From NCBI GenBank assembly GCA_017506865.1, contig JAFCMP010000538.1:496001-560000 (forward strand): DNA of 64,000 nt, read 5' to 3'. Positions 34,398-63,449 of the stretch are shown in pieces (the first letter of the stretch is position 1; every line of letters begins with the position of its first letter). Under the pieces are notes generated by a model that saw nothing but the letters and a program-made list of their open reading frames with translations, ran no database searches and was not told where the DNA came from. Both the position numbers and the translations under genes were made by a program. The stretch comes from Tribonema minus. Lineage: Eukaryota; Sar; Xanthophyceae; Tribonematales; Tribonemataceae.

Positions 34398-34679
34398 TGA
34401 CGGAGTATGATACCTACATACCCTACTTGCATGTGCATGCATACCTACACAGGTTTCTCCCCATTCTGGGAGTTTCTCTTGTTAGTCCACCACTGCATGT
34501 TCCAGCACCAGTCCGGTACTGTTCCGCCATTGACTCAGGGCTATTTCTCCGCTTGCTCACGCTCCTGCACAATAATCACTTCTTTGCAATACCAGCCTGC
34601 CCTGGTCTAGTGCTGTTCTGCACTTTGCATTGGGTCCACCTTGGGTGTCCTACTCTGCCACGGTGTTATAGTTCCGTCA
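34398..34679 (+). repeat. 3' LTR
   Basis: 282 bp, same sequence as the 5' LTR by direct reading, ending TCCGTCA before the GGCTG duplication. Confidence 0.97.
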
Positions 34680-34684
34680 GGCTG

Positions 34685-36221: not shown

Positions 36222-39200
36222 ATGGGTGCCCAGGCGAGCGTGGAACTGCTGACCAGCACTGATGGAGGCTCACTGTTGGACACTTTGTCAGTGCCGCTGC
36301 TGGAGCAATTACTGGAGCATGCACACGAGGGCCTGAAAACAGGGTTGCGGGAAGCATGTCAGGCGGACGAATCACTCGCGCTCAGCGAAAGCGCCGCCAT
36401 AGCAGCGCTGATCGCCTACACCCTGAGGCCTGCACGAATAGAGCTGTCGGACCTGGCGGGGATAGCAGAAAGAGGAGCAGAGGACGCTTCTATCACAGGG
36501 AGGACCTTGTACATATTGGGAAACAGCTTTATCAGGGCACGAAGTCCCTCGTCCTTTAGGCTCTCGCCGCTGCAGCACCAGCAGTCCCGGTCTCTGAGCC
36601 CACCGAGTGGCAAGCGAGTTCCCGCGCGGTCGGTGGACTTCGACAAAGGATTGACACTGAAAGGCTTAGCTGGTGTGACTGGAATTGCCATGAAGGTGGG
36701 CAGCCAATCCTTGGCACTTGCGCCTGTGATGTTCCTACAAGCACCCGTTGCAGCCATGTGCAATTAGCTGCACCACCGATCACTGCACAACTGACAGCAG
36801 CGTGTGTGTGTGCTTGCGTACTTCATATATGGGCCATGCAAGTCATTGCTAGTGTGCATGGCTGTTGGCAAAACAAGGCAGGCAAACCGCTGCTGCATCA
36901 GTCCTGGTCCTGGTTCACTCATGCAGCGAGCTACCACCGCACTCCTTGACAATGCTCATGCATCAAACGACGCGTCAAGGCACGCACAATCACAACCTGT
37001 GTCATCAGGGCAGCCATCGTTACCTCCACAGCGAATGTGCTCAATGCCAGCCGCAGTGCCTTCTGCAAGCTTTCATACCTACATACCCCAGCACCCGCCG
37101 CTCGCTGGTGCACATATACACCAACGGAAGCCATCTGTGATCACACATTGACAGCGCTAGCATCGCAGTGACCCCGAATGGCGCTGCCACCTCGCCACAG
37201 GCGCGTGAGGCAGCGGCTGTCAGGCGGCCGAGCAGGCAGGCGGGCGGCGCTAGGGCGGGGAGCGCTGCTGCGAAGCGCGCCAGCGCCAGCGCGGCGGCGG
37301 CCATGAAGAGCGGGAAGTCGCTCAAGGACGCGGCGCTGCTGGGGGTGGGGCCGGACGGAGCCACGCAGGTGGTAAGTCACACTGCTGATGTTCACCTGAT
37401 GAGGTTGAAGTTGAGCAGGTGGGGAGCGCTCAGGCAGCCCCGGAGTGCGCTGTTGGTGGACGAAAAGCGTAGTGTCGCTCAAGGACGTGGCGCTGCTGGG
37501 AATGGGGCCGGACGGAGCCACGGCACACGTGGTGAGCCATCATGTTGAAGTTATGAGGTAGGCTTCTGAAGTTCATCTGATGAAGTTGAAGTTGAGAAGG
37601 TGGTGAGCAGGCAGCGTTGCAGAGCGCTCTTGCCGGATGAAAAGCGCGCGCAATGTCGCTCAGGGACGTCACGGTGGCGCTGCTTAGGGGGGGGGGGAGC
37701 GGACGGAGCCACGGCGCAGGTGGTGAGCGCTGATGCACACTGTTGAAGTTCATCTGATGTGGTTGAAGTTGAGCAGGTGGATGGCGCTCAAGCAGGGTTG
37801 CGTCTTGCTCTTGGGGGATGAAAAGCGCAGGGTCGATCAACGACGGGTGGGGGGGGGGGGGGGGGGGGGGACGGCGCCACGGCGCAGTGGTGCGGCACAG
37901 TTGAAGTGCACGTGATGAGAGTGAAGCTGGCATATTTCAGGAGTGGCGGCGCGGGTGGCGAGCGCAGATGCAAGCTCTTGGGGGAAGCGCAATGTCGCTG
38001 CGTGATGTGGTGCTGCTGCGGGCGGGGCCGAACACCGAGCCGCGGCACAGGTGGTGAGCACTGAGGCAGTGTCGACACGCATTGTCCAAGAGTGGAAGTG
38101 CATTTCCGAACATGGCGCTGAGGGGTGGTTGAGCAATGATGCAGTGTTGAAGTGCGATTCTGGGGGATGAAGAGGGTGGAGTCGCTCAGAAAGACGCGGT
38201 GCTGCTGGGGGTTGGACGACGGCGCAGGTGGTGAGCGCTGCTGAGGCAGTGTTGAAGTTCACTTTCAGAGTTGAAGTACGCTGTTGAGAGCTACGGTGCA
38301 GCTTGGGGCGAGCCTGGATGTGACGACGGCACAGAAGAAGCGGCGCACATGTCGAGCACTGAGGCAGTGTTGATGTGCACCGTCCAAGAGGAAATATGTG
38401 CCGTAGGTGGTGTGGGCACCGGAAAAGGCAGAGTTGAACTGCGCTGGTGTGAGGCTCGGCGCAGTAGCGTCAAGTGCTGAAGCAGTTTGAGGAAGTTCAT
38501 CAATGTTTGTTGCAGGTGGTGAGCTCTAAGCCAGCAGTGTGACAGGGCGCCTCTGGGACGTGTGGTGCAGGTGATGAGCACTGACGGATTTTGGCAGTGC
38601 AGATAACAGCAGCAGGTCACTCGTGTACTGCAGTTTAGACCCAGAGACTCTGCAACAGCAGTTTAGTGGTGTACTTTGGACCTGAGTACACGCAAGATAG
38701 CATTATCATACTTCTTGAAGTAGCAGTAGGTGTCCATCTATGCTCCCAGCGGCTCAGAGGGTAGGCGTGCGCAAGCTCAATGGGAGCGTTTGTGTTGTAT
38801 ATGCATTTGTGTTATATAATACGGCGTCCGCCCCTCAAGCGAAAGTATCTCAAATACGCGGAGGTGCTACGGGACTCTGCAATGGCCAGTACAAGGGCTC
38901 TGCTGCAGAGCAGGGCTTGCACCAGTGCAACAGCCACGGACGCGCCAAATTAGCTTGAGGATGTTGCCCTGCTTGGAATGAGTTCCGGCTAGGCTGCGGA
39001 TCAAGCTGAGCAGTGCTTGCAAAATAACAAACAAAAAAACACATACACACACACAGACGAAAAAGGCGGGAGCGGGGGGGAGGGGGGGGGGGAAATAGGA
39101 AAGTTGCTTGTTGGTCACACTCGTGCACACCGATTGTCTGATGCGAAGCAAAAAACAGACGAAAAGGCGGGAGCGGGGGGAGGGGGGGGGGCAATAGGAA

Positions 39201-42200
39201 AGTTTCTTTTTGGCCGCACTCGTGCACACCGATTGTCTGGAGCCCTCGATGAGCATCGTACATTGACTCCATTCTCAAGCAGACCTGCGCAGCTCTGGCA
39301 CCACCAGCCAATAGCTGGGCTTGAGCTGGCGCTACTGCACGACAGTGCAGCGCCGACCCCCGCCCTTTTTTTGAAGGAGGGGAGCGCAGTGCAGACTAGG
39401 TTGCTGCATAGGAGTCAAAACCCCTAGAAACACAAGGGGGATACCCGGCCCCCCTTGGGGCCTTGTGAATGCAAGTCCACGAGTACATACAGCACATGAT
39501 TGAGGCGCGCCTTGCTGGCGATGTCAGTGCAAACACCTCCTTAAGAGGGGGGTTGTGTCAATTACGCATTGCAGGTCACCTGTCCCTAACCCTAACCCCC
39601 ATATGCTGCAAATGACCCTGACGCTCATTGTTAGGAAAAACGAATCAAAAGATCTTGGGCTCTAAGGGATGGTTAGCCGCAATTGCCTTCCACCAATAAC
39701 CGTGGTCGCCGCTGCTGCAGTCATTGGCCACGAGTCAAACATGTCATGATAGCCCTTGGTGCCATCCCAACCTTCGCCTCGATGAACGTCGACTCAACAA
39801 CAGAGGTTTTTGGAACTGCACAGCACATTTAGGGTTGAATCAGGGGTAGGGTTAGAGTATGGGTTAGGTGTAGGTTTAGGGTAACGGTTAGGTTTAGGTT
39901 TAGGGTGAGGGTTATCAGGTTAGGGTTAGGACCTGGAGACGCTCCAGCAGTTTGCCTGACGCAGCTGTCAAGGTTTGTGAGGTGCAATCAGCTCTGCCAT
40001 GGGGTCCTGTGGTCTGTATTTACAGCAGATGGCAAGTCACCCGCACTGGCTGCAGCCCTAGTCTGATCCAAACCCTTACTCTCACCCGTTTTACTCTCCA
40101 CGACTGTCAAAGTGCAGCCCCTGCTTAACCACTTTCACACATCTCAAAGTGCGACATCTACTCCACCACCGCTCTCGCCATCTCACAGCGGCAAGGCGGG
40201 CAAGGCTCCAGCGCAGATGAAAAGTTGAAGTTTCCCTAACACTCATTGCAGCCTCCAACCCTTGCTCTCGCCATATGCAGCCCTTACCCGGGCTTTGACC
40301 CCAATCTCACATGCTCTCATGACATCCGCTCAAACAGCCCCTATGCTTGTTGAACGAACAAGGCCTGCAAGGCTCCAGAGCCAGTGGCAAGTCACCCGCA
40401 TCGGCTCAAGCTGCAACACTGGTTCTGACCCCAACCCTTACCCCAACCCCTATGTACTCTCGCATCTCTCAAAGTGCAGCGCCTGCTTGACCACTCTCTC
40501 ATATCTCGAAGTCTGTTTGACTAGTGGATACGGTGATACTGTTTGACTCGTGGCCAATTGCTGCAGCAGCGGCGACCGCGGTTACTGGTGGAAGGCACTT
40601 GCAGCTAACCATCCCTTGTCACCTAGCGCTCTACGATCTTTTGATTTGTTTTCATCTCAAGATGCGACCTCTGCTTGACCACTCCTAGTCTTGAGGTTTT
40701 TCCGCGGCAAGGCCGCCGAGACTCCGGCGCGGGTGGCAAGTCACCCTAACACTATCTGCAATGCCCAACCCTAGCCCTCACCGTCATCGAGATCTCTCGT
40801 GCTCTCTCGTCACGTCACATCCCGCAACACACTCTTGCTATCTCTCAGCGGCAAGGCCGGCAAGGGTCCGGCGCGGATGGCAAGTCACCCGCACTGGCCT
40901 CAAACTTCAACCCTAGTTCTATCCAAACCCTTCATAAATACTCTCACATACTTCAGAAAAAGCATCTCAAAGTGCGGCATCTACTTCACCACTTTTGCTG
41001 TCTCTCAGCGGCAAGGCCGGCAAGGGTCCGGCGCGGATGGCAAGTCGCCCGGTTTGAAGGCGGCAGCGCTCCTCGGCGACAGGGCGCTGGAGCAGCGCGC
41101 GCTGGACTCCGTGGGCGAGCACGCTCAGGTATGTAGGTATGATCAGCACGCTCAGGTATGCAGGTATGATCAGCACATAGGTTGAAGTCAAGGAAGATTA
41201 ATGAGTTGAAGTTAAGCAAGGCGGCAGCGCTCCTCGGCGACAAGGCGCTGGAGCAGCGCGCGCTGGACTCCGTGGGCGAGCACGCTCAGGTATGTATGTT
41301 GTGTAGGTATGATCAGCACATAGGTTGAAGTCAAGGAAGATGAATGAGGTGAAGTTAAGCAAGGCGGCAGCGCTCCTCAGCGACAAGGCGCTGGAGCAGC
41401 GCGCGCTGGACTCCGTGGGCGAGCACGCTCAGGTATGTAGGTAGAAGTCAGCAAGAAGTTGAAGTTGAAGTTGACTGACATCAACAGCAATTGATGATGG
41501 AGTGTTTGGCGTACATGTCATGGAGGTGGGAAAAAAAAGCATCAGGTTTCACGGTCGATGATTGTATGCGAGGTGCATAAAAAGCTCAAGTTTAATGAAG
41601 GTTACAAGCAGGTTTCCGATTCATGATGGTATGTGCGGCGTGCATAGAATTATATTTGAAGTTTCACAACAAATATCAAAACATACGGCGTATACCACCC
41701 TCACCACATACGTGTATTAGGTTTTCCAATTGATGATGGTGTGTGCGGCGTGCATACCATTGAACTTTTACAACAAGTACTACATAATCACATGGCAACT
41801 TAGCCCTGACCGCATACGCGCATTGCGTTGCTACATACCCTATACGCAGATCAACAGGAAAATGCGCACACAGTTGGAGTTCAAAAAGCAGCATCAGCAC
41901 GACTGATGATGGCACGTGATGGCACCGTTTTGCATTGCCATCACCGCACACGCGTGCTCTGTTGCTACATACATACCCTATACGCGCACCTCAAACAAGA
42001 AGGTGGTGTAGTTCACGTGGGACAAACAGTACAAACACACAGGCTTGCGGTTTAATGATGGTGTGCGCGGCGTGCATACACTCGAAGTTAAACAACAAAG
42101 ACCAAGTATACGACATACTTTGAAGTGTACATGTACCACCCTCACACACACGCGCACACGTGTCCCGTTGCAACCCATGCTGCATACCTACCCTATACGT

Positions 42201-45200
42201 GCAGATCAACAAAAAGGTGCTGGACATGGTGGGTGATGCCACCAAACTGGCGCCGCCGGCCGCGCGCAAACGGCTCGGCTCGGAGATGGCACTCGACGTC
42301 AAGGTCAGTTTAGATGTAACGTAGCGACTGGCACTTGAATTTGCGTGATGACATCAGCACCACATAGAGAGCAGGGGAGGGCGTGCAGCGCATCTCCCAT
42401 CATCAGCACCGCGTGCGATTTGCGCCATGCAGCGCAACATCAACTTGAGCTTTGAAAATGACGAGGACGCTCCGCGGTTCAGCGATCGCTGCCGCGGCCG
42501 GTGCGGGCCAATGTAACGATTGGCACCAGTCAGGTAACAGCCCCACGCCAGGGCTGCTCTGCCGAAAAACATGTGAGCAAACTCGCGCCGCCGGCCGCGC
42601 GCGAACGCCTAGGCTCGGCGATGGCGCTCGACGTCAACGTCGGTTCAAATGTAGCATAGCGACCGGCACCAATACAGCAACAGCACCACGCCAGAGCCGC
42701 TCTGGCTAAACATGAGCAACTCGCGCAGCCGGCCGCGCGCAAACGAATCGGCTCGGCGATGGCGCTTGACGTCAAGGTCAGTGTGGATGTGACGTAGCGA
42801 CTGGCACTCATGAAGTAGCAGCGCCACGCCAGGGCTGCTCTGCCGAAGTACGTGTGAGCAAACGCGCGCCGCCGCCGGCCGCGAGCGAACGCCTCGGCAC
42901 GGAGATGGCGCTCAACGTGAAGTTCAGTGAAATGTAGTGTAATGACTGGCACTAATAGTGTGACGTGGCCGCAGCAGAGCTGCTGTGGGTTGGCGTCAGA
43001 GTTAGGGTTAGGGTTGGGGTAAGCACGTTAGTATGAGCGCCCAGGTCAGCGTTAGGGGGGGTGGTATTTGGTGTAGGACGCCTAACCCTAATCCTAATCC
43101 TAACTTGCGCCGCCGCACTGCGACTGCGGGTCAGGGTTAGGGGTAGGGTAGGGTTAAAGTTAGGTTAGGGTTAGGTTTTGAATGCCTGGTGTCCAAGATG
43201 GCGCTTGACCCGAAGGTCAGGCGGCGCATGTGTGTGATGGGATTGGAGTTGAAATAGGGTTAGGTTTAGGATTAGGGTTAGGGTTAGGGTTAGGGTTAGA
43301 GGCAGCCTCATGGAGGATAGAGTTTTGATGGACTGGAATGCAAGGGCTGGCGGCGCGCCAGTGGCCCGCAAATGGTTGCCATTCACCCGTCTGTTGGGTA
43401 ACCCTAACCCTAACCCTAATCCTAACCCTACGCAATGCATACCAGTCACGCCACCTGCACCGGTCACTGTCAGCTGATGTGTACGCCTCCGAGGTATGTA
43501 TGCATGTATGTATGCATGTATGTATGTATGTATGTATGTATGTATGTACGTATACATGTTTGTAATGAAGATGGCGACACTCATGGCGCTCTGTGCTGGC
43601 AACGACAACACAATGTGCAGCAGGCGGACGGCGGAGAAAGCTGAGCACTGCCGCGATGCACATAGTATAGGCGAGAAATGGCCTAATAACGCGCCTGACA
43701 TGGGCACCCACGACACACGACCATCTGACGGACTCACGCCACAAATATCAATGTCATCCGTTACGCGACTGCTATGCCAGATGCACCAGGTGGAGGCGGA
43801 GAACGCGGAGCTCTGCCCCGAGTCGGAGAAGGCCGAGCGCGATCGCGTGCAACAACAAGTGACCTCATAACACACTTCGCCTTTGCATCTGCGACACGCA
43901 GCCGTTTGACAGACACAACCGCCGTTGCGCGCGCTATGACAGATGCACCAGGTTGAGGAGGAGAAAGCTGAGCTGCGCCGCGAGCTGGAGAGAAGGCCGA
44001 GCAGAGCACTGCCACGAGCTGTACACTATGAACAAGAAGTAGCCTAATAACACACTTCACCTTTGCGTCCGCGACACGCAGCCGTCTGACAGACACAAAC
44101 GCCATTGCACGTGCGACAGCAGATGCCAGGTGGAGGCGGATAAAGCTGAGCACTGCCGCGAGTCGGAGAAGGCAGAACGTGGCAGCGCGCAGCAGCAAAG
44201 TATAAGCAAGAAGTAGCCGACCAACACACTTCACCGTTGCGTCCACGACACGCAGGCATCTGACAGACACAAACGTCGCTGCACGCGCGACAAAAGATGC
44301 ACCAGGTGGAGGCGGAGAAGCGGAGCGCTGCCGCGAATTGTGTAGTATAGGCAAGAAGTAGCCTGATAACGTGCTGAAACTTTGGCACCCTTGACACACA
44401 GCAACCTGATGGACTCACACCACACATGCCAACGTCAGTCATGGCGTGAATGCCATGACAGATGCACCAGGTGGAGGCGGAGAAAGCTGAGCTGCGCCGC
44501 GATTTGCATCAGGCCTAGCGCGATCGCGTGCAGCAGCAAAGTATATGCAAGCAGTAGCCTAATAACGCGCCTACCTTCGCACCTTTAACACGCAGATGCA
44601 CCAGGTGGAGGCGGAGAAAGCGGAGCTCCGCCGCGAATCCGAAAAGGCCGAGCGCGATCGCGTGCAGCAGCTGGAGGCCGTCATTCACGCCGCGGCGCCT
44701 GACGCCGAAGCTGGCATCGCGCCAAGTGGCATCGACCACAAGGCCGCAGCGATGCTCGGCGAGAGCCTGCTGGAGCAGAAGGCCATGGAGGCCGTGGGGC
44801 ACAACGCTCAGGTCAGGATCAATGAAGAATGTTGAAGTTGACAAGTTGAACTGTTGAAGTTATTTGAAGTTAAAAATTGAAGTCAGCAATGCTCGGCAAA
44901 AGCCAGCTGGAGCAGAAGACCATGGAGGCCGTGGGTCACAACGCCCAGGATGGCAGGGTTAGCGAATAAGACCAAGTTGATGAAATTGAACTTACCAATT
45001 TTTAAACAGCTAAAAAACTGAAGTCGCGATGCTCGGCGAGAGCCTGCTAGAGCAGAAGGCCATGAAGGCCGCGGGGCACAGCGCTCAGGTTGGTACTATT
45101 GGCGAGGAAGTTGAAGCTGAAGCTGAATAACCAACTTCAATCAGGCTTAGCATTATTGGCTGAGTGAGAAAATAGCGGTCAAGCAGCCCAGAAATTGACA

Positions 45201-48200
45201 TTGCAGTCTGAACACAAGGGTTGTACTGAAGTACTTCCGAAGTAGGTGTTTGTCGCAGTAAGATTTTCTTACTGCGAAGGTGTGCAAGCTCGAATCTTAC
45301 TTGCATCAGATGGTCAGTTGGCAGCGCCGCAAGTCGTTGCGACAAGGCACACACCATGCACGAGCGCTGAAATGCTGCCCATATGTGCCATATGCCTGTA
45401 CATTGGCATGACGCGTGTTTGCACGGTACTGTAGTGCACATACACATTGTGTGTACAGCGTTTGTAAAGCGTATAAACTGCGCTGATTCACCCTCAAACC
45501 GCGCGTTTCGCCGCAACCGTATGCTCAGGTCAACAACACACGTCGCACATATGGCGTATACAGGCGTTAAATATACCCTCAAAACGCCTGTTTTGCCGCA
45601 ACCGTATCATCAGGTCAACAGCAAGGTCATGGATCTGGTGGGCGACGCCAACAAACTGGCGCCGCAGCACGCGCGCAAACGCCTCGGCTCCATCATGTCG
45701 CCGGGAAGCAAGGTGCGCATTGCAGTAGGGGAAGGGACAGGGTAGGTAGGGTATTGAAGTGGTTTTTGAAGCAAATTACAGGCCACAGCCCACGTGCTCC
45801 ATCATGTCGCCTGGGAGCAAGATGCGTTTGCGCGTGTGAGGGGTGGGTAGAAGCAGCTTTGCTCCGTAATGCCGCTGGACAACAAGGCGGGCATTGCAGA
45901 AAGGGGCGGGAGGGGGGGGGGGGGGGGGGGGGGGGGGCAGGGCAGGTGCAGGCTGCAACGTACAGGTACTGTGGGACGCCGCCTGCGCACAAGCTTTGCT
46001 CCAGGGCGTGCTGGGTGAGGGGGGCGAGGGTAGATGCGGTCGTGCAGTTCAAGTTGCAGTGCGCTGCAGGCAGCAACGCTCAGGTCGACGCCAGGCCGTG
46101 GAGAGAGATGGCGGAAGAGGTGATTGGGGCGGCGCTGCAGCCACCAGCCGCAGACACGTTTAGGGTTAGGGGTAGGGTTAGCGTCGGGGGTAGGGTTAGC
46201 GTGAGGGTTAGGGTCAGAGTTTGGAGCTCAAGGGGCTGACGCTGCAGCTACAGCCGCAAAAACAGTTGGCGTCCATTACCGCGTGTCTCTGTGCACCCAT
46301 GTGTAGTCTGTGCGACACGTCTTGGTGTCGTGTTGTGCAGGTATCGAGCATGTGTTGCATCGACAAGACCCGGGCGCCCAGTTCGAACTGCGATGAAAAC
46401 GCGGCCTTCGATGCCCGGCGCCTCGCCCTAACCCTAACCCTAACCCTAACCCTAAGCACGGACGCACGCTTGCGTTTACTGCCAGTTCCTAGGCTGTACC
46501 CAATTGCCTTCGGTGTGCGGTGACGATGCGTCATTTTGCACGCAGCCAGTGACCGTGCGCGTTGCTTCGCGTGCCCAGGGTAGGTGAGGGTATGGCATGC
46601 TTGTGCAAGTGCTTGTAACCCTAACCCTCACTCTAAGCTGTTCCCCGACCGCTGCAGCCTCCACATTCTACAGTAGTAGCCTGCCAGCTCGCACATAATG
46701 CAAGCCGGGCTAGGGTTAGGATTTAAGGGTAGGATAATCCATGGCTGTTAACTGGGGCAGTCATCACACGTACATTCATACATGCGTACTGCGTGTACCT
46801 CAGGCCCTGTAACCCTAACTCTGATTGATGTTGACCCGAATCTGAATTGTAACCCAGACATTCACGCAAGGCAGCAGCGGTCATGAGCTGACATAGGCGG
46901 GTGGGCTGTGCAGACCGTGACCCTTCACCAAAGCAGGGTTAGGGTTGGGGCTGAAGTTAGAGATGGGGTTAGGATTAGGGCTAGGGCTAAAGGCAGGCCA
47001 ACTGCTGCACAGCAGCGACGCACACCACCGCACCTATACATACACAGCACATATACAAGTGTACATGTACATGAAAGCGTACGAAGCACACGTACCCCCC
47101 CCCCCAACACACACACACACACCCTCCCCCCCCCCCCCCACACACACGCACACACCACTGAACCCCCCCCCTCTCCCCCCCCTCCCCCAATACACATACC
47201 CCTACCTACCCCCCCCCCCCCCCCAGGCCCAGCAGATCATCGCCGACATGGACGAAAAACAGCACGAGGCCGACGAAGCGGAGCGCGAGCGCCAGCGACA
47301 GTTACGAGCCGTCATCTCCATGGAGTCCCCGCCGCGCAGTGCGGGCATCGCGGCGATGGGCGTCGACCACAAGGCGGCAGCGCTCCTCGGCGACAAGTCG
47401 CTGGAGCAGCGCGCGCTGGAGTCCGTGAGCGTCAACGCTCAGGTAAGAGAGAAAATTGAGGTTAAGCATGAGTTGAAGTTGAGCACGGCGGCAGCGCTCC
47501 TCGGCGACAAGTCGCTGGAGCAGCGCGCGCTGGAGTCCGTGAGCGTCAACGCTCAGGTGTGTTGAATGAAGAAGTTGAAGTTGAAGTTGCGGTTGCGTAA
47601 GTGAATAAATTGAAGTTGAGCAGGGCGGCAGCGCTCCTCGGCGGCAAGTCGCTGGAGCAGCGCGCGCTCGAGTCCGTGAGCGTCAATGCGCAGGTAGTGG
47701 GATCAGCGAAGAAATTGAAGGTCAACAAGGAAAGAGGTCGACGTCCAACAACCAATGCAAACAGGCTGTACGATGTTGGTGATGGTGTGCACGGCGTATG
47801 CGGGGTACCTGACCCCCACTAGACTTGGCAAACAAACTCTCGAATAACAATCACGCCGACAGGTTTTCACGATGTCACCATTAGTGTATGCAACGTCTAT
47901 GCAGCGTATACCACCCTCAAGAGGATCAGCGAAGACATGCAAGTTGAACCAACACATTCGATCACGTTCTCTCGCGATTGACAATGGCGTGTGCGGCATA
48001 CGAACGGCATATACCGCCAGGATGAGCAAACAAGTTGAAGTCATGCAAGCACGCCCTATCGATAATGGTGCGTGCGCCGTATGTAAGGTGTGTGTATATG
48101 ATTACCCCCACCTAACCCTAACCCCACCTATGCGCAGATCAACAGCAAGGTCATGGGAATGGTCGGTGACGCCAACAAGCTGGCGCCGGCTCCCGCACGC

Positions 48201-49181
48201 AAGCGCCTCGGCTCCGTCATGTCCTCCGAGAAAAAGGTGCGCTTCGCGTGCGTGCGAGATGGGTAGGTAAGGTATCATGAGCCCGCGTCGGCGCCTGCGC
48301 GCAAGCTCCGCCATGTCCTCCGAGAAGAAGGTGCGTTTCGCGCGTGTGCAAGAGGGGGTGATGGGGTAGGTGAGGTATCATGAGCTGGCGGCGCCAGCGC
48401 CCGTGCGCAAGCGCCTCGGCTCAGTCATGTCCTCCGAGAGGTGCACTTCATGTGCGTGTGAGAGGGGTAGGTAAGGTATTGTGCGCTCGTGATGGATTCC
48501 GCAAGCAAGCGTCTTGGCTCCGTCATGTCATCTGAGAAGAAGGTGCGTTTTGCGCGCGTGCGTCCAAGAGGGGGCGGGGTAGGAAGGGTATCGTGTTCAA
48601 GCGCCGGCGCTCGCGCGCAGGTGCTTCGGTTTAGTTGACCTCCGTGACCTTATCCTGACCCTAATCCTGACTTTGACCCTAGCCTGACGCCCCCCTAACC
48701 CTAACCCTAACCCTAACCCTAACCCTGTAGAGCGACTTGTCGGGGCACATGGCGTGTGCAGGCGGCACGAGTGCTTACTAGTAGGGTTAGTGTTAGGGCT
48801 AGGGTTAGGGGTAGGGAGTGCGCTAAGAAATATCATCGTTGATGTCGCATGCCTAGGATCAGGGTTGGATAGGGTTAGGGCTAGGACTCGTAGGGTTAGG
48901 GTCAGGGTTACGCGCACCCCCCCCTGACTCTGCCACTGCCAAATGCTTATGGCGGCGCTGCTGCTGCAGTTGAACCTCGTGCATAGCTCAGCGTCAAGGT
49001 TAGGGTCAGGGTTAGGGTGAAATTTTGTGGACGCAAGCCAACAGCGAGGAGGGAGAGTGCGCTGCGTTCCTTGCGTCGTTGACGACGCAGGCGGAGCAAG
49101 CGTTGAAGACATCGAGGCAAAGCAGTGCTTTGCGCAGGCCGAGGCGGAGCCCGCGCCAGGGTATGTACATCATACTCTACT

Positions 49182-49212
<31 letters not shown>

Positions 49213-53538: not shown

Positions 53539-54655
53539 CTCTGACTCAGGAGGCACTGCTCCGTACCTCCGAGTCGGAGATGCTGAGCGCTGTGCTTGCA
53601 GCGCTCGCGCCTCCGCGCGCAGCCGCGCAGGTCGCTCCCGCGCGTATGCGACACGCTGGCGCTCCCGTGCGCGAGCAGCGGCCTCGGGCAACGGCGTGTG
53701 ACCTCGAGGCACTCCAAGTCCGAAACTCTGAGGTGCTGCGTGCTGCTGAGCGGGAGTGACAGCGCGCGCGTAGCGGCTGTGTAGTGCGCTGACTCACTCG
53801 GAGCACTGGGGCACGACGCCGCCTGCGCGCCCCGCCGCGCGGCGCCGCCGCCGACGCATACACACTGTTCCATACGTAAGGGCTGCGCTTAACGCGGCAG
53901 CACTCGGAAGGCGACGCCGCCACGGCAGCACCGCGCAATGGCGGCTGCGCGCATTGCGGCAGTTCGACTGTCACGCAACGCGGAATGGCTCCCCCCCCCC
54001 CCCCCCCGCACTGATAATGTTTACTTTCTGCTTCCCAAGAGGTTCAGTGGCGTGCATCTGCTCTCTGCTGCTGACTGTGCCAGTACAGTATGTGCACCCA
54101 GCTGCTGTCGATGCGACGTACCTCAGTACCTGTGCGACGATCGCCACACTGCCGATGGTCCAAGGCTGTGCAGTGTACGAATGGCACATACCCAACGGAG
54201 ACCTGCAACAATACTGGCTGTTGCGCAGCTCACAGCGACCATGCGCTAAAGCGCCGCCGATTGCAACAGACACACCTAAAAGCTCGCCCCCATGAACCAT
54301 TCAAGGTGCACTGGCAAGACACTCAGCGCGCAACGAGCTATTGAGATACGCGTCCCACAATCATCAGCGCAACTTGATTTGCACTATGACCAGCGGCCGC
54401 AGGTTGAAGATACTATTGTTATTGCTCCTGAGTGGAGTGCGCACTCAATCAATGTCACCACCATTGCTGAGCGCAAGTCGATCGCAACAATATCCAGACA
54501 TCATGTACCAGCATACAGAGCAAAGTGCGAGGAGCCCCAATGTTCAACAAACGGCATCGCATGTACATGTATGCACACGTTTGGCATAACTCAAAGGCGG
54601 CTTGTTGCAGCACCAGCGCTCGCCCCCCCCCCCCCCAACCGCCCCCCTCTCAGGG
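53539..54655. other. Convergent 3' region between the modular and DNAJC11 genes
   Basis: The two genes converge here. At about 53590-53715 a diverged copy of the modular gene's last exon end, including its TGA and about 40 bp beyond, is present. The rest has several chance ORFs, a C-run near 53992-54007 and nothing else I can name. Confidence 0.5.
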
Positions 54656-57600
54656 TCACCGCACCACGTCCGCAGGCCCCAGGTACCGCGCATGCGCACT
54701 CGGCAACTGCAATGCATCCACCTCAGTCTCTGTCGTGACCTCGAACGTCCGTCCCGCGTGCACGTATCTCACGTAGAGATTAGCGGGCACTGACCCCCCT
54801 CCTCCCGGGGGAAGGGTCTCTCCCCCCTCCCCCTCCCCCGCCCCCTCCCCCCCTCCCTCTACCTCCAGCCCCTCTGTCACTGGGTAGAATCCCAGCAGCG
54901 CCGACTTGGCGCCTGCGGGCAGCGACAGCGCTCCGCGCGCAACGAAGAACTGCAGCGGCACCGTGACGTCGATGTTGCGCGGCTCGCACGCCAGCGCGGC
55001 ACGCGCGGCGTCCGTCGCCTCCCCGTTCTCAGCCGCCGCCGCGGCAGCAGCGCCGCCGCTGGTGCCGCCGTTGTCTGCCTGCAGGAACCACTGCGCGCCG
55101 TAGTCCGCGTGCAGCGCCGCGCCGTAGCGTGCCGCCAGTATCACAAGCCCGCCCGATTCTTCCTCCTGCACGGCCTTGCGGCGCGCCGCGTGGAGCATGA
55201 GCTGGACCTGCTTGGCGGCGGCGGCGCGCGCGGCGCCGCGCCGCCGCTGCCGCCGCGCTGCCTCGCGGACGCGGCGCTCGGACTCCGCTGCAGGTTGCGC
55301 AAGCGCGCAGCGCAGCGCAGGATGTTTGAGCTTGTCCAGCTTTTGAATTGATGACCAAAAACAGGGGGGGGGGGGGGGGCTTATGGGGGCGCGTCGCGCA
55401 GCGGTTTGAGCTTCATCAACGGAGGGTGCGGCAATTATGGCGGTGTGAGCGCTGCCGCCGCGCCGCCTGGCGGATGCGGCGCTCGGACTCGGCTGCGGTT
55501 TGCGCGCGAGGATGTGAGCAATGTTATCCTCGTACTTCTAGAGGGTGAGCAGCTTATATCGTTGGGCAGGCATCTGAGCTTCATCAATAGGATGTGCAGC
55601 AATGATGGGTGGCGCAAGCGGTGTGAGTGCTGCTGCCGGTGCCGCCGCGCCGCCTCACGGATGCAGCGCTCGGACTCGGCTGCGAGGCACGCGCAGGGAT
55701 GTGAGCAATGTCAAAATCACATTTCCAAAGGGGTGAGCAGCTTATGGGTGCACGTTGAGCGGGCATCTGGGCGTCATCAATGGGGGGTGCAGCAGTTGTG
55801 GGTGCTGCCAGCGGTGTGAGCACAGCCGCCACGCCGCCTCGCGGACGCGGCGCTCGGAGTCCGCTGTGAGGCACGCACCTTCAGCAAGGGCGTGTGCACA
55901 AAAATTGAACATTGTGGATGGCGTGTGCAGCTTGCAGAAGCGGCACAGCACGTGGCAGCAGCGGTGACACATTGACCTAACCCCGACCGTAACCCTAGCA
56001 ACGCCGAGAGGCGCGTCATCGCTCGCCACGTCCGCTTCAGCCCTGAGCGTGTATGCAACGGCCCCGTGTCGCCGCGGGGCACAGCTGCCCCGCCCCGCCC
56101 CTAACCCTAGAAGCAATACAAACCCTAGAGGCGCCAGCGGGCGCGCTGGTTAGGGTCTGGATAGGGCTTTCGCGCCTCTCCTTACGCCCCGCGCATTCCT
56201 GCAACGGCTTTGAGCGGCTGCACTCAACGCGTCTGATGTATGCAACACACACCGCTGCGACCGTTCTCCAGGCCGTCACCTCGCCGGACAGCTGCGCACA
56301 CGCGTAGCGTTACATGCGGGCCGTGGAGCGTGCGGTTTGCCAACAACAACAACTTCAGGGGCTTCATTCACAAATCAAAGTTCTCAGTGATGGATTGAAT
56401 GCCTGCTTCAGCCCTGGGCAACAAGTGGCAGTAATCAACGCTACTTTGTCGGTGCAGATCAGATACATGCCTACCCACCTGCTTCAGCCCTGACCTTTGG
56501 CGCACAGAGAAGAAGTTATCACAGCGCGATTGCTTCTCAAATGCAGATCGTATACATGCCTACCCACCTGCTTCGGTCCTGAGCGTTGGGGCAACGAGAA
56601 GAAGTCATGGAAACGAATCAAAAGATCGTAGAGCTCTCGGTGACAAGGAGTGGTTAGCCGCAAGTGCCTTCCACCAATAACCGTGGTCGCCGCTAGCGAG
56701 GTTGCTACTTTAACGCAGATAGTATACATGCCTACCCACCTGCTTCAGCCCTGAGCGTTGGCGCCACGACCGCGCGAATCGCCGCGTCCACGGCTGCCGG
56801 CACCACCGCCCCCACCAAGATGCTAAGGGGATCACACGCCGCGGAGAGCAGTATGGGCAGGTGAAAGCGCATGCCGCCGCGCTGAAACCGCAGCACCACG
56901 GTGACGCCTTGCACGCCGACTTTGCACCCGACCTGTTGCAGGAGGTTCGCACAGGGGGGGAGGGGGGGGCAACGCGTTGGAGATTGAGATTGAGGGGGGG
57001 GGGGGGGGGGGGGGGATGCAGGGGGTAATGGAACTCCGCCTTGGACGGCTTGATGCATGCCTGCCGTGGGTCGCCGCGCCGCGCATGCACCTTCATGTTT
57101 GAAAAGTTAACACTGTGAACGAGCAGCGACAGAGAACGCTCGCGCTCGCCACAACCCATGCATGCCTACCTTAGATTGCTGAGCCGCGGACGCACCTTGA
57201 CATGCACGAGCGGCGAAAATACACGCTTACCGTGTACTTCTACATCACAAGCATACCTACGCTAAATTGCTGAGCCGCGGACGCACCTTCATGTGCACGC
57301 GCGTCAACAATACACGCTTGTACCCTGTACATCACAAGCATACCTACCCTAGATTGCCACATGCATACCTACCCTAGGCCGCTGAGCGCACGTGCTCTGT
57401 ACGTGATGTGCATACTATAGTACATCGCCGCACCGCGTGTGCACACCACGTTTACGAGTAAGAAGCCACGCCGCTCGTACTCCACTCATCTTACAGTTTG
57501 AAGTATCGCTGAGCCGCGGACGCACGCACCTTGGCATCTATCGTATACCGCCGCGCCGTGCATGAACTTTCATGTCGATGGCGTCGGCAGCAAACGCGCA

Positions 57601-60584
57601 CACTCTCTCTCTCCACAACCCATGCATACATACCATATCGCTGAACTGCGGGGCGTACCTTGACATGCACGAGCGGCAGCAATAACTGCTTAGACTCCGC
57701 ACATCAAATGCATACGTACTGTATATCGCTGCGCCGTGCATGCACCTTCATGTTCAGTTAACACTTGTCAACGAGCGGCGAAAGCAAACGCTCGTACTCC
57801 GTACGTCACATGCATACCTACCCCTAGGTCGTACCTTGACATGAACGAGCGGCGACAGCGAGCGCAACGCATTCGCGTGCAGCTCCCAGCCGCCAACGCT
57901 GAGCCGAACGCCCACGTCGCCGCGCGTGCGCTGCGTGAACGCGCGCGTGTAGCCCGCACACACGGCACCAATTAACGCTTGTTTTTCGTACATCACAACC
58001 CTACCTACTGGACTTTGCTGAGCTGCGGATGCACGCACCTTGACGTGAACGAGCGGCGACAGCGAGCGCAGCGCGTTGGCGTGCAGCTCCCAGCCGCCAG
58101 CGCTCAGCCGGACGCCCACGTCGCCGCGCGTGCGCTGCGTGAACGCGCGCGTGTAGCTCGCGCGCGCCGCCGGGGCGAGCGTATCTTCAAGCGACAGTTC
58201 CAGCCTGTGACAGCGTGTTGGATGGGTGAATGTTGTGTGAACGCGCGCGTGTAGCTCGTGCGCGCCGCGGGGGCGAGCGTCTCTTCAAGTGACAGTTCCA
58301 GCCTGTGACAGCGCTCAACAATAGAGGAAGTGCGGTGGATGGGTAAAGGTAAGGTGAGGGTCCTAACCCTGAACCTAAGCATCAGGGTCATGGCAGAGGG
58401 GGATGGCAACGTCTGGCGCTACTAGTGGGGTTAGGGCAACCTAACCAATGTTAACCCTAACCCTGACCCATTGGCCCCGACCCCCACTTCACTTGCGCCA
58501 ATGCAACAAAGATGTTGTGGAAGAGGATGGCAACATTGCACTACTAGTAGGGTAGAGTAACCTAACCCTAATAGCAACCCTAATTCTAACCCTGACACTA
58601 CTCCCTCCCCACTTCACTTGCGCCAACGACAACAGAGGTGCATACATTTTTTTTTTTTCCGGCGTGGAGTGCGGCAGGGGGGTCAATGTTGAAGTGTATG
58701 AGTTGAAGTGTGTCAGTGACGCCCCAGCACATGACGGCGCTCCCTGGCGGCAGCTGCCGTCAGCAATGATCAGGCACCTCCCAGGACTGGGCCACAGCTG
58801 TTCAGTAGCACCCGACAGCAGCCCAGGGCCCCTGGCGCGACTGCAGTTGGCAGTTACATATCAGTTACGTGTCAGCGTCCGCGCGTCCTCCAGTCACAGG
58901 CGTCAACATGCACCAGGCAGCGAGAGGCATGCGTAGCAGCTCTCTTGGCATCATGCCGCGAGGGGAGGGGCCGGCATGCGCATCGCATGCGCAAGCCGTT
59001 GAGCACTGCGCGCTGCCATGCATGCACCACACAAAAGCTTGTATTGAGGGAGAGGGTGGAGTTTGAATATGAAGTTTGAATCTGGGCACCTCTCACGCGC
59101 GAGCGCCCGCCATCGTGCAGGTGCCCTGCGTGTGCAGCTTCGCGCGCTCGCCCTGCCGCCGCCGTGCAACTCCATGCCAAGCTCAACTGCGAGCTTGGAC
59201 GGCACCTGTGAACATTAAAATTGCCAGCTTCAACTTTGACTCATCTGAGACGCACCTCGCGTGCAAACGCCCGCCGTCGCAAGCCCACCAGTGAAACCCC
59301 ATACTCCAACTCAACAAATGCAACTGTGCGTCCCAGATTTTAATTTTGCCAACCTCAAGTTGAGCTTATCTGCGACGCAGCATTGCACCCAACTGCCAAG
59401 CACTTACTTGTGTGTTCATTCTCGCGAGCGCCCGCCGTCGCGCGCCTGCCCCACGCGCACTGTCGCCGCTCATGAACTCTGTACTTCAAAATCAACATGG
59501 AAACACTTCAACATGAAACTTATGAAACATTAAAACACCCGGAGACGCACCTCGCGCGCGATCGCCCGCCATCGCGCGTCTGCCCCACGTGCACCGTCGC
59601 GCGCCTGCCCGCCGCCGCGATGCGCCGCGACGCATTCACCACTAAACTTCAACATCAAATTTCAACATTGAAAGGAGACGCACCTTGCGCGTCTGCCCCA
59701 CGTGCACCGTCGCGCGCCCGCCCGCCGCCGCGACGCGCCATGCCCTACTTCAGCATGCCAACTTCAATTGCGAGTCAGAGACAGCAACCTCCACACTTCA
59801 ACATCACAAACATCAAATGCTGCTGACTCTTAAAAGAAAAAGGGGGCGCGCACCTTGCGCGCGATCGCCCCCCCTCGCGCGTCTGCCCCACGTGCACCGT
59901 CGCGCGCCCGCCCGCCGCCGCGACGCGCCACGACAAGTTCACCGCCGTGTTCGCCCCCCCCCTCAACGCCACGCTGTAGCGCAGGTTCGGGCCGTGGCGC
60001 CCCACCCCAGTGCTGAGCGTTGTGGTGGCGCCCCCCGGAGATGAGGTGTGCCCCCCCGTGAGGTTGATTTGGGGGTCAAAGCCGAGCTCCGCGCCGCCGG
60101 AGAGCCAGGAGCGCGCGTTGAGCGCGTGCCGCAGACCCAGGGACTGAGGGTGTGAAGATAGGAAGGGGAGGGGGGGGGCAAGTGGGCGGGAGGGGGGGGG
60201 GTGAGGGGGGGGGGTGAAGTGGCATGTATGAGGGGAGGTGTGGTGCAGGGCATGATTTGGTGTGCATCGGTATGAGGGAGGTGGTGCAGCGCTCTACTGG
60301 TGTTGAGTGCGTGCCGCAAACCCAGGGACTGAGGTGTGTGGATAGGAATAGGGGGGGGGCATGAGTTGATAGGTAATGGTAAGAGGGAGGTGTGCAGCGC
60401 CCTGCGCGTGCCGCAGCCCCAGGGACTGAGGGGCGCGGATAGGGGGGGGGAGGGGGGGGCGGGCAAGGGGGGGGAGAGGGGCATGTATTGGTATGAGGAA
60501 GGTGGTGCAGCGCTGCTGGTGGCCGACCGTGAAACAGGCGCGAAGGTAGGGGGCGGGAAGGAGCGGCACGAATGAGTCAGATAT

Positions 60585-60620
<36 letters not shown>

Positions 60621-63449
60621 CTCAGCAGACCCTGCTTCTTGTGCTGTGATTGCATGGTATTGACTGACTGCACCTTAGCACCCGACATTGCCCCCCCCCC
60701 CCTTAAAGTATCCCCCTCCCCCCAATTATTTCCTGTCTGCTGGCACAGCGGCACTCTCCCTCAGCCCGCTTCTCCACCTCAGGAATAACTGGTTCGGTGT
60801 TGAAGTTGTGATCACCAAACCGTGTCTGCAAGCACGCGAGGGCGCGCCGCCTCAATGACTCAATCACTCACTCACTCAACGTCTCACCGCGTTGCCCATG
60901 CCGACGCCCCCCCCCCGCGCGCCACGACGTACCCCCCGAACGTGCCCTGCGTGGTCGGTGGCTGATAGCGCGTGCCATTGTCAAATTCGTCATCTCTAAG
61001 CCGACTCTGCGTGCATACAGCGCCGCCTCCATGACTCACTGACTCACTCAATGACTCACCGCGTGCCATTGTCAAATTCGTCATCTCTAAGTCGACTCTG
61101 CGTGCGTACAGCGCCGCCTCCATGACTCACTGACTCACTCAACGACTCACCGCGTTGCCCATGCCGACCCCCCCGCGTGCGACGACGTACCCCCCGAACG
61201 TCCCCTGCGTGCGCGCCGACAGCGGCACGTCCACCGCCTGCTGCATCACCATGTGCGTCACCGCCGGAAGTAGGCGGCCCGGGCGCAGCCGCCCCGCGCT
61301 GTCGACGAGCGGCAGCATGGTCGCCTCCACCACGACGCTGCCGTGCGCGCCGACGGTTGCCTCCAGCTGCTGCTGCCGCTCCTGTTGGACGAGCCGCGTG
61401 ATGAGCTCGCGCACCTGCAGCGCGTGAAGCACATTGCAAAACCATCAAAACTTGAAAGTAAACAGCGTTGCAAAAATTGCAAAAAAAACTTCAACTTGAG
61501 GTATATGTGATGCTGCCGTGCGCGCCTGCGGTCGCCTCGAGCTGCTGCTGCCGCTCCTGCTGCACAAGGCGCGTAATGAGCTCGCGCACCTGCAGCGCGT
61601 GAAGCACGTAGCGAAGAGCGTCGCAAAAAAAAATCAGTTTGAAGTAATAATGATGTGACGAGCGGTCGACTCCGGCAGCAGGGCGCTGAAAAAAAACTTC
61701 AAGTTGAAGTAAAACATGATGCTGCCGTGCGCGCCAACGGTCGCCTCGAGCTGCTGCCGCTCCTGCTGCACGAGGCGCGTTATGAGCTTGCGCACCTGCA
61801 GCTGCAGGCAGCGCCAGCTGTTGTGAAGTACTCTTCAATTGAAGTAAATATGTGATGCTGCCGTGCACGCCTACGGTCGCCTCCAGCTGCTGCTGCCGCT
61901 TCTGCTGCACGAGCCGCGTGATGAGCTCGCGCACCTGCAGCACGTGAGGTACATTGCAGAAAAAACTTCAACTTGAAGTAAATAGCCGCGCGAGCCGTCG
62001 ATCACCTTGAGCTGCTGCTGCCACTCTCGCTGGACAAGGAGCGTTGTGAGCTGCGCACCTAAAGGCCACAAATGACTTCATCTGGGTGTTAAAATCCGTA
62101 AAGCCTACAAGTATGCAGCGGAAGTGCTGCTGTGCAACAGGCTGCGCGCTGCACAGGACGAGCACTGTTGGTGCTGAGCCCTGCTGCTGATTTTGTCAGC
62201 TGACCAGGGCGTACTAACCCTAACCCTAACCGTAAGGCGCACCTGCAACAAATTGTTAGCTGCATGTGGACGTCTCGTGCAAGCGACGCTGAAGCACGGC
62301 AGCCCCATAGACAACATACAGGCTGCGCAACGTGTGCGATATGAGAGCACTGAGCGCATGAGCAGCCCTCCCGCTGATAAACTTCAAGAGCATGACTTGA
62401 ATTAAGCCTCAAATGGTGGAGGAGACGCACCTTCGCCGGGCTGCTCACGGCGCTGAGCGCGTCGCAGTGGCCCACTGCCGACATGGCCTCGAACTTCACG
62501 ATGTAAACAAAGACTTCAAGAGAGACGCACCTGCGCCAGGCTGCTCACGGCTGCTGAGCGCGTCGCAGAGGCCCACCGCCGACATGGCCTCACACTTCAC
62601 GAGGCAGTACTTCAACACAAATACTTCAAGAGAAGACGCACCTGCGCCGGGCTGCTCACGGCGCTCAGCGCGTCGCAGTGGCCCACCGCCGACATGGCCT
62701 CGAACGCGCGGACGCCGTTCGCGCCGTACGCGTCGTACGCGTGGCGCTTGTTCGGGTCCGACAGCACGCGGAACGCGCGGTCTATGAGCTGAAACTGCTC
62801 ATCCGCCATGGCGCGCATGTCGCGCAGCCCCGCCGTCGCGGCCGCGGCGGCGGGGGTGTGCGTTTCGGGCGCGCTGCTGCCGTTGGTGTCCGCGTCCTGG
62901 GTGAGTTTTAGCGCCTCCTTCCTGAGCCATTCCACGCTGTTCAGGTCCACCTTGTCGGGGTGGAGGTGCGCCACCTGAGGGGGGCGGGGGGGAGGGGGGA
63001 AGGGGTGAGGACACGTTCGCGGAGTGCAACCTGCACGCTTGACTTTTGAGAGTGGTTCTGTGCAGCTGGCTGCCAGCAAAGCAGGTCAAGTGAACTGTAC
63101 ATCAGCAGTCTTCGCCGAAAAGCAGGTGACCAATTCGGAACACCATGGTGGCCAAAGTTGGCGAGCGTCTCAATGCCTGAGCAGTTCGATGTCAGCTTGG
63201 TGCAGTGAGCACATCAGCTGTACCGTGTGCGACTGAGGTTCAGGCATGTTCTAGCCCCAGCTGTGAGTGCCACACGTCACAGGCTGCAAACAGAGCCCGA
63301 GTTTTGCACATTGTCAAGTTGAAGCGTACCAGGCCGAGGTACGCAGCGCGGATCTCCTTGGGCGTCGCCGTGCGGTCCACCCTAAGAGTCGCATAGTAGT
63401 CTGGTGGCTCCATCTCGTCGCCGGTCAGCGGCGCTGCGAAAGGCGCCAT
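54656..63449 (-). CDS. DNAJC11: DNAJC11-like J-domain protein, 7 exons, 665 aa
   Basis: Exons 63449-63330, 62974-62642, 61414-61151, 60143-59854, 58204-58039, 56932-56740 and 55287-54656 join with phases 0,0,0,2,0,1 to 1998 nt. Exon 1 starts the J domain (YYATLRVDRTATPKEIRAAY); exon 2 has HLHPDKVDLNS (HPD at residues 45-47) and DRAFRVLSDPNKRHAYDAYG, split by a Thr/Ala-rich insertion of about 40 residues. Exons 3-6 match the beta-rich middle of DNAJC11, e.g. VTHMVMQQAVDVPLSARTQG and VTVVLRFQRGGMRFHLPILL. Exon 7 has the coiled coil and the DUF3395 C-terminus (GGLVILAARYG, NIDVTVPLQFFVARGALSL). DNAJC11 sits at the mitochondrial outer membrane with the MICOS/MIB complex and supports cristae. It is about 100 residues longer than the human protein. 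Every intron carries junction echoes. Confidence 0.9.
55440..55875 (-). repeat. Junction echoes of DNAJC11 exon 7 start
   Basis: Plus-strand GCCGCCTGGCGGATGCGGCGCTCGGACTCGGCTGCGG (about 55460-55500), and copies at about 55645-55690 and 55830-55870, echo the exon 7 start and acceptor at 55255-55295. The period is about 185 bp. Confidence 0.85.
56390..56605 (-). repeat. Junction echoes of DNAJC11 exon 6 end
   Basis: CATGCCTACCCACCTGCTTC.G.CCTGA (plus strand) recurs at about 56557-56600 and 56467-56500, and a fragment is at about 56400, copying 56728-56760, the exon 6 end and donor. Confidence 0.85.
56609..56697 (+). repeat. Dispersed ~100-bp repeat, copy E
   Basis: GGAAACGAATCAAAAGATCG through CGTGGTCGCCGCTAGCG. 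It is inserted between an exon 6 echo (56557-56600) and the real exon 6 end. Confidence 0.82.
57085..57975 (-). repeat. Junction echoes of DNAJC11 exon 5 end
   Basis: A long copy (57834-57965) repeats most of exon 5 from its donor side. Shorter copies of the end (GCACCTT.A.GT..ACGAGCGGC.A) follow at about 57740-57785, 57650-57690, 57560-57600, 57290-57310, 57190-57215 and 57085-57130. CATGCATACCTACCCTAG-type text accompanies each unit. Confidence 0.85.
58265..58315 (-). repeat. Junction echo of DNAJC11 exon 5 start
   Basis: GGGGCGAGCGTCTCTTCAAGTGACAGTTCCAGCCTGTGACAGCG copies 58170-58215, the exon 5 start and acceptor, about 100 bp upstream in gene sense. Confidence 0.9.
58355..58595. repeat. 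Telomere-like repeats and a tandem unit in DNAJC11 intron 4
   Basis: Degenerate CCCTAA units at about 58360-58375, 58435-58468 and 58555-58590. An accompanying unit (GATGGCAACNT.G..CTACTAGT.GGGT, then CCACTTCACTTGCGCCAA) occurs twice, near 58400-58500 and 58525-58625. Confidence 0.75.
59085..59750 (-). repeat. Junction echoes of DNAJC11 exon 4 end
   Basis: GACGCACCT.GCGCG...CGCC...TCGCGCG(T/C)CTGCCCCACGTGCACCGTCGCGCGC recurs at about 59680-59745, 59550-59625, 59410-59470, 59248-59290 and 59090-59170. The real junction is at 59850. CTTCAAC motifs (GTTGAAG in sense) sit between units. Confidence 0.88.
60295..60440 (-). repeat. Junction echoes of DNAJC11 exon 4 start
   Basis: GCGTGCCGCAAACCCAGGGACTGAGG (60308-60333) and GCGTGCCGCAGCCCCAGGGACTGAGG (60407-60432) copy 60124-60149. 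G-rich runs follow each copy (C-rich tract in gene sense). Confidence 0.9.
60880..61110 (-). repeat. Junction echoes of DNAJC11 exon 3 end
   Basis: TCACCGCGTTGCCCATGCCGACGCCCC ... CCCCGAACGTGCCCTGCGTG at 60890-60952 copies the real exon 3 end (61148-61212). A second unit (CTGACTCACTCAATGACTCACCGCGTGCCATTGTCAAATTCGTC) at about 61040-61085 is shared with 60965-60995. Confidence 0.85.
61500..62060 (-). repeat. Junction echoes of DNAJC11 exon 3 start
   Basis: The exon 3 start (plus-strand ATGCTGCCGTGCGCGCC...GTCGCCTC.AGCTGCTGCTGCCGCTCCTG ... GAGCTCGCGCACCTGCAG) recurs at 61509-61605, 61709-61805, 61853-61945 and 62000-62062. AACTTCAA-type text (TTGAAGTT in sense) lies in every spacer. Confidence 0.9.
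62212..62235. repeat. Short telomere-type tract
   Basis: CTAACCCTAACCCTAACCGTAAG in DNAJC11 intron 2, about 150 bp from the last exon 3 start echo. Confidence 0.85.
62425..62605 (-). repeat. Junction echoes of DNAJC11 exon 2 end
   Basis: GACGCACCT.CGCC.GGCTGCTCACGGC ... GAGCGCGTCGCAG.GGCCCAC.GCCGACATGGCCTC recurs at 62522-62600 and 62422-62500; the real junction is at 62640. The period is about 110 bp. Confidence 0.92.

Follow-up and report, generated by a model that had tools for sequence, protein, structure and literature searches.

Serial copies of splice junctions within introns of Tribonema minus: occurrence, probable origin and fate

Why should introns contain serial, partial copies of their own splice junctions? 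The question is raised by a 64,000-nucleotide stretch of the Tribonema minus genome, referred to here as the window. Tribonema is a yellow-green alga, and the T. minus assembly comprises 158 Mb in 554 contigs. An initial annotation of the window reported repeated fragments of flanking exons inside introns and suggested that they might represent a mode of intron growth or a source of alternative splice sites. We mapped these fragments, extended the search to other genes and asked how they probably arose.

Splice junction copies in the window and in other genes

Two complete genes of the window, with 19 exons between them, were rebuilt (table 1); their splice sites are predicted from open frames and Pfam matches. 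The DNAJC11-like product matches the Pfam DnaJ, DNAJC11 beta-barrel and DnaJ-like C11 C-terminal families. A Pfam search with the product of the second gene gave no match and a protein search gave one distant hit; this gene is made up of a repeated two-exon module and is called the modular gene here.

Copies were sought in each exon's own neighbourhood and mapped around all 19 exons. Serial copies of splice junctions are present inside the introns of both genes. Donor-side copies start within the exon, cross the donor and run on into the downstream intron, while acceptor-side copies start in the upstream intron, cross the acceptor and run on into the exon. The chance level was taken from 168 alignments to shuffled introns, the highest of which scored 30.0. 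At a threshold of 30 there were 52 donor-side and 39 acceptor-side copies, distributed over 22 of 28 introns (17 from the window and 11 of 30 kinesin introns, selected by how well their splice sites could be placed). The additional genes were nine kinesin and three chaperonin loci, picked for multi-kilobase chains of exon matches before any inspection for repeats; exon-by-exon examination covered a minority of all kinesin matches. At these loci the exon boundaries are those of HMM matches rather than mapped splice sites, and the chaperonin exon list omits an HMM match (C135:208473-208583) that repeats the start of the next exon. Junction copies were found in seven of the nine kinesin loci, two being without copies, and in all three chaperonin loci. 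Across the window, kinesin and chaperonin sets, 44 of 64 introns carried copies on at least one side at a score of 32 and 20 carried none.

The copies show a strict polarity, with exon 3' ends copied downstream and exon 5' ends upstream. All 107 copies around the 58 exons of the window genes and nine kinesin loci were placed this way, as were 30 of the 31 around 20 chaperonin exons; the lone exception was marginal, with a score of 33 against a threshold of 32. Over the 78 exons, exon 5'-end copies were upstream in 62 cases and downstream only in that marginal one, and exon 3'-end copies were downstream in 75 and upstream in none, giving 137 right-way copies to one wrong-way copy, in agreement with the initial annotation. 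Exon middles were seldom copied: among exons of at least 160 bp, 3/32 had a middle copied upstream and 4/32 downstream. In the self-comparison of the window, exon-end copies were local, paralogous modules excepted.

Copies lie head-to-tail on the same strand, and the unit length was 87-191 bp in 39 of 46 tandem families that touch a junction, which bears out the reported spacing of 100-200 bp. Among the copies listed for the window genes and kinesin loci, none includes the acceptor as well as the donor of one exon, and the phenomenon is thus, as had been argued, distinct from ordinary exon duplication. The copies are indeed partial, but the statement that they always span the junction was too strong, since 19 of the 65 tandem families count as intron-interior ones, a small number of which end 10-11 bases inside an exon. 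Elsewhere in the window, copies located without exon models bear out the pattern in a patatin-like lipase gene (Pfam E 9.3e-10), with both acceptor-type and donor-type copies, and in the first gene, with one pair (table 1); the single occurrence noted for RRN3 (Pfam PF05327) corresponds to one nearby pair at 20646-20809.

The copies have consequences for annotation. With the spliced DNAJC11-like product as query, we found a single protein annotated for T. minus (P0001; NCBI JKP88DRAFT_265477), which has 928 aa, 263 more than the 665 aa of the copy-free product. It matches the window at 97-100% over stretches equal to the real exons, and it includes exon-end copies as coding sequence. All three Pfam domains score higher for the copy-free product than for the deposited model (beta-barrel 59.7 versus 52.2 bits; C-terminal domain 71.8 versus 64.1 bits), and the beta-barrel domain forms one stretch in the former and two in the latter. 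Gene predictors can therefore mistake junction copies for exons, and other T. minus gene models may be inflated likewise.

Table 1. Positions of rebuilt genes, junction-copy arrays and dispersed elements within the window.
Feature	Coordinates	Strand	Remarks
Modular gene	36222..53538	+	12 exons, 739 aa; GT-AG introns, all phase 0, open spliced frame
Modular gene exons 1-6	36222-36695, 37201-37368, 41009-41128, 42205-42303, 44605-44811, 45614-45712	+	
Modular gene exons 7-12	47227-47442, 48138-48236, 49723-49938, 51136-51234, 52400-52624, 53341-53538	+	
Modular exon 2, donor-side array	37303..38261	+	five copies listed
Modular exon 3, acceptor-side array	40025..41051	+	
Modular exon 3 end and donor-side array	41057..41453	+	two copies
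Modular exon 4 end and donor-side array	42243..42957	+	three copies
Modular exon 5, acceptor-side array	43608..44671	+	
Modular exon 5 end and donor-side array	44747..45093	+	two copies
Modular exon 6, acceptor-side pair	45490..45623	+	
Modular exon 7 end and donor-side array	47370..47720	+	two copies
Modular exon 8 end and donor-side array	48182..49343	+	late copies near 49232
Modular exon 9, acceptor-side array	49085..49791	+	
Modular exon 9 end and donor-side array	49865..50192	+	
Modular exon 10, acceptor-side array	50596..51150	+	
Modular exon 10 end and donor-side array	51184..51478	+	two copies
Modular exon 11, acceptor-side array	52000..52443	+	
Modular exon 11 end and donor-side array	52550..53063	+	
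Modular exon 12, acceptor-side pair	53169..53351	+	
DNAJC11-like gene	54657..63449	-	7 exons, 665 aa; open spliced frame, Pfam
DNAJC11-like exons	63449-63330, 62974-62642, 61414-61151, 60143-59854, 58204-58039, 56932-56740, 55287-54657	-	stop included
DNAJC11-like exon 2 end and donor-side array	62419..62705	-	two copies
DNAJC11-like exon 3, acceptor-side array	61331..62060	-	
DNAJC11-like exon 3 end and donor-side copy	60844..61211	-	
DNAJC11-like exon 4, acceptor-side array	60117..60481	-	C-rich
DNAJC11-like exon 4 end and donor-side array	59092..59930	-	
DNAJC11-like exon 5, acceptor-side pair	58136..58313	-	
DNAJC11-like exon 5 end and donor-side array	57053..58161	-	
DNAJC11-like exon 6 end and donor-side array	56440..56769	-	
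DNAJC11-like exon 7, acceptor-side array	55240..55876	-	
First gene, single junction-type pair	1881..2179	+	without exon model
Patatin-like lipase gene, acceptor-type copies	12142..13374	-	without full exon model
Lipase gene region, donor-type copies	15766..16166	-	without full exon model
Short dispersed element	12694-12844, 14144-14225, 23316-23408, 39632-39741, 40509-40655, 56607-56694		

How the arrays may form and whether junctions are favoured

The arrays are probably explained by recurrent tandem duplication across splice junctions together with renewal from the exon. Short head-to-tail duplications, mostly of 90-190 bp, would repeatedly straddle splice junctions in T. minus introns. When a donor is spanned, the first copy would stay joined to the exon and the second would end up in the intron; when an acceptor is spanned, it would be the last copy that stays joined. 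For as long as the spliceosome picked the exon-joined site the mRNA would be unaltered, and the extra copy would therefore persist as intron sequence and decay. The exon end, being under selection, would provide a lasting fresh template, from which unequal exchange or renewed duplication would insert copies beside the exon, shift older ones inward and homogenize copies with their own exon. Both the polarity and the partial nature of the copies follow once a junction is duplicated in tandem and the mRNA has to be kept. The polarity is thus automatic under tandem duplication and provides no evidence for a special mode.

Do duplications nonetheless favour junctions? Self-comparisons of the window genes and kinesin loci gave 65 tandem families, 46 of which touch a junction; approximately 19% would be expected to do so. 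The excess is seen both in the window genes (24/31 families, where random placement predicts 18%; p 1e-12) and in the kinesin loci (22/34, where it predicts 19%; p 7e-9). It could conceivably reflect detection, with tandem duplication proceeding at one rate everywhere, exonic duplications being purged and exon-touching copies remaining recognizable for longer, so that no junction-specific process would be called for. This uniform background suffices for the polarity, and it predicts the kind of interior family that we do find (19/65), with similar unit sizes; three families were also present in 12 kb of three arbitrary stretches outside these genes. Exon copies should be visible approximately twice as long because the exon does not drift, and such a frozen template also favours renewal. 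In a toy model that combined this template with renewal, the junction share rose from 0.31 to 0.67 as renewal grew. However, when renewal was set close to the rates that the copy numbers imply, this admittedly crude model gave a share of 0.32-0.36, against the 46/65 observed, and 0.67 was reached only at rates that leave almost no single-pair families; among the observed families, 13 of the 46 anchored and 15 of the 19 interior ones are single pairs. The frozen exon therefore accounts for only part of the junction excess in the toy model. When divergence was matched across the 64 introns, 24 junction arrays (exon-copy identity at least 90%) stood against 13 interior clusters (at least 80%), and a stricter match left 10 junction arrays at 94% against eight interior clusters at 88%.

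The ends of genes provide a further comparison. A duplication spanning a stop codon should be as harmless as one spanning a donor, yet copies were present at only 3 of 18 stop-codon ends but at 33 of the 64 exon 3' ends that face an intron (p 0.007). All three stop-end copies were weak (scores 35-40), and above a score of 41, a cut-off chosen post hoc, there were none at stop ends versus 31 at intron-flanked exon ends. The initial count of gene 3' ends was 2/9 versus 33/64 (p 0.10), and actin ends were then added. Of eight chaperonin ends seven were used, L062 having no clean stop end; BLAST detected no stop-spanning pair at these seven, while a more sensitive alignment gave a weak positive at one of the seven and at the end of the modular gene. 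The nine actin ends include one with a doubtful tail (L063). The rarity of stop-spanning copies argues for a bias linked to junctions or introns. Tandem-family density was 1.0-1.2 per kb across the two window genes versus 0.1-0.4 in most other stretches tested. Taken with the toy model, the stop-end comparison makes the uniform background an unlikely explanation, and a junction- or intron-linked duplication bias beyond the frozen-exon effect is likely. We infer that duplication with exchange takes place at the DNA level, and that the best explanation includes this additional bias.

A more specific version of junction-straddling duplication can be put forward only tentatively. Here, a duplication process tied to the junction or to co-transcriptional splicing would write junction copies into the adjoining intron, introns would grow from their ends in the manner of a conveyor and the arrays would form an ordered record of duplication. 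The initial annotation had suggested intron growth by outward tandem duplication; the geometry is as described, but the polarity is automatic and the similarity gradient is significant only on the donor side (see below).

The modular gene offers a view of turnover. Its paralogous exons 3, 5, 7 and 9 each have donor-side copies, and nearly the same linker precedes the copies in the case of exons 3, 7 and 9. Nevertheless, copies of exons 3, 5 and 7, as well as those of exon 4, which belongs to the other module type, are closer to their own exon than to its paralogues; for exons 8, 9 and 10 such grouping is not clear. The shared linker combined with own-exon grouping suggests that the register of the arrays predates the split of the modules and that the copies themselves are younger, a pattern consistent with ongoing renewal from the exon. 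If an entire exon were copied with its two splice sites, it would presumably be spliced in, and the repeated phase 0 exons of this gene may therefore be full-exon duplications that were kept.

Fate of the copies and composition of the introns

The exon part of the copies retains a mean identity of 0.89 for donor-side and 0.87 for acceptor-side copies, while that of the intron part is about 0.70-0.73, presumably because the exon is frozen whereas both intron copies drift. The initial annotation had the units decaying away from the exon. This holds on the donor side, where similarity drops with distance (43 concordant versus 12 discordant pairs; permutation p 0.0006), but there is no significant gradient on the acceptor side (27 versus 21 pairs; p 0.28).

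Selection might be holding the copies in place, either as splice sites that reinforce the true ones or act as decoys, or as enhancer-like sequence that helps to define exons beside long introns. The dinucleotides at the copied sites give a mixed answer: AG is kept in 35 of 39 acceptor-side copies, where 30.0 would be expected under neutrality (p 0.03, uncorrected), but GT is kept in 42 of 52 donor-side copies, exactly the neutral expectation (41.8). Nor is there any frame preference, with 12, 12 and 14 intact-GT copies and 4, 11 and 12 intact-AG copies at remainders 0, 1 and 2, respectively. An in-frame, stop-free extension of the exon is possible for just 4/38 donor copies and 0/27 acceptor copies. 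On these grounds we set aside as unsupported the suggestion that the copies are a source of alternative splice sites. The copies also score below the true sites, by a mean of 2.0 bits for donors and 3.6 bits for acceptors, with a matrix trained on those same true sites, and the 20 of 64 introns without any copy at the common threshold also speak against maintenance by selection.

Sequence motifs within the arrays bear on the same point. Two words, TTGAAGTT and AACTTCAA, show a strong excess in the window and kinesin introns and are denser in arrays. TTGAAGT or its complement, far above the expectation from base composition, occurs at 3.1 per kb in arrays versus 1.3 per kb elsewhere in introns (2.4x), and among donor-side occurrences the sense form is the commoner one (34 versus 11); this could be read in favour of selection, although copies within an array are not independent. 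We considered whether donor TTGAAGT might pair with acceptor ACTTCAA to loop out introns, and rejected this since the orientation split favours it on the donor side only (7 versus 9 on the acceptor side) and since many kinesin introns have few TTGAAGT/ACTTCAA words. A role for the motif as a universal breakpoint signal was likewise rejected, as it is dispensable in kinesin arrays. Overall, maintenance by selection seems improbable, and the copies behave mostly like neutral fossils, in keeping with recurrent duplication and renewal.

In the two window genes arrays span 54% of the intron sequence (11,732 of 21,893 bases); for the nine kinesin loci the figure is 19% (8,085 of 42,590). The median intron length is 1336 bp where junction arrays are present (n=31) versus 973 bp where they are absent (n=16; p 0.017). 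Telomere-type repeats had been placed in intron middles, and their density is indeed higher outside arrays than inside (1.19 versus 0.50 per kb). Interstitial repeats of this type occur throughout the genome, with 11,474 overlapping (TTAGGG)3 matches on both strands and none for the reversed control. Several genes have introns that contain a short dispersed element of approximately 80-145 bp, which occurs in either orientation (table 1). The window also contains an LTR retrotransposon at 29570-34681, judged by eye from its reading frames to be of the copia type; its two end repeats of 285 bp are 100% identical, so the insertion is probably recent.

The abundance of telomere-type inserts (the 11,474 matches above) indicates that repair-associated insertion may be active in this genome, and the copies could in principle be inserted fragments, derived from reverse-transcribed pre-mRNA, templated break insertions or introner-like mobile elements. 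Such fragments would be expected on either side of an exon and in other genes, whereas in the self-comparison of the window the exon-end copies are local, paralogous modules excepted, and the polarity over 78 exons is 137 to 1, on which basis we rejected reverse-transcribed or dispersed insertion; donor-side copies, moreover, join exon and intron bases as genomic DNA does. This origin is very improbable. Assembly artefact is equally hard to credit: the NCBI protein that contains copies derives from the same assembly as the window and is not independent, but the copies differ by up to approximately 30% and have different linkers, where misassembly would give near-identical copies, and genes from many contigs show the pattern.

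Comparison with known systems

The lengthening of introns is usually ascribed to transposons and diffuse insertions. The large share of intron sequence found here in arrays that start at splice junctions would make growth readable copy by copy. It also poses a question for splicing, as the exon-joined site must be picked from among near-identical serial donors or acceptors, as exon definition would do.

Tandem duplication is a recognized route of intron gain (PMC3443670). In the cases of Hellsten et al. (2011) and Gao and Lynch (2009), as cited in PMC4974935 and PMC3443670, a local duplication supplies the splice sites, as in T. minus, but the duplicated segment is internal to an exon and a new intron arises, whereas here the segment spans an existing junction. 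The T. minus units thus differ from AGGT-type intron gain, in which the new intron appears within an exon. The closest parallel is the potato RdRp gene, where a tandem duplication that crossed the boundary between intron and exon brought about intron change (Ma, Lan and Niu 2016; PMC4974935). There, as in T. minus, the duplication takes in an acceptor together with the beginning of the next exon, and inherited splice signals are reused. The potato case is a single event that yields a new intron and a coding change, whereas in T. minus many genes and both junction types are involved, serially, and existing introns lengthen. Direct repeats at intron borders, also a feature of the arrays, were described by Rogers and Bendich (2025); theirs are 4-30 bp long, one end of an intron being compared with the other (PMC11782384), while the T. 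minus units are about 100 bp and one-sided.

Introners place similar splice-site elements in many unrelated genes, which is not what the self-comparison of the window revealed. Tandem exon duplication, as in mutually exclusive exons, copies a whole exon with both splice sites, unlike the junction copies, although the repeated exons of the modular gene would fit this class. Minisatellite-like arrays consist of head-to-tail units that undergo copy-number turnover and homogenization. The T. minus arrays share the head-to-tail units and may share the turnover and homogenization, own-exon grouping being seen for exons 3, 4, 5 and 7 of the modular gene and not clearly for 8, 9 and 10, but one unit of each is a functional splice junction and the arrays gather at junctions. 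Their head-to-tail arrangement, close spacing and placement on the side dictated by duplication are those of local tandem duplication. Searches of an open-licence library gave no description of serial, genome-wide, junction-centred arrays. Single junction-spanning duplications are thus already known, and what appears to be new in T. minus is their serial form, spread over many genes.
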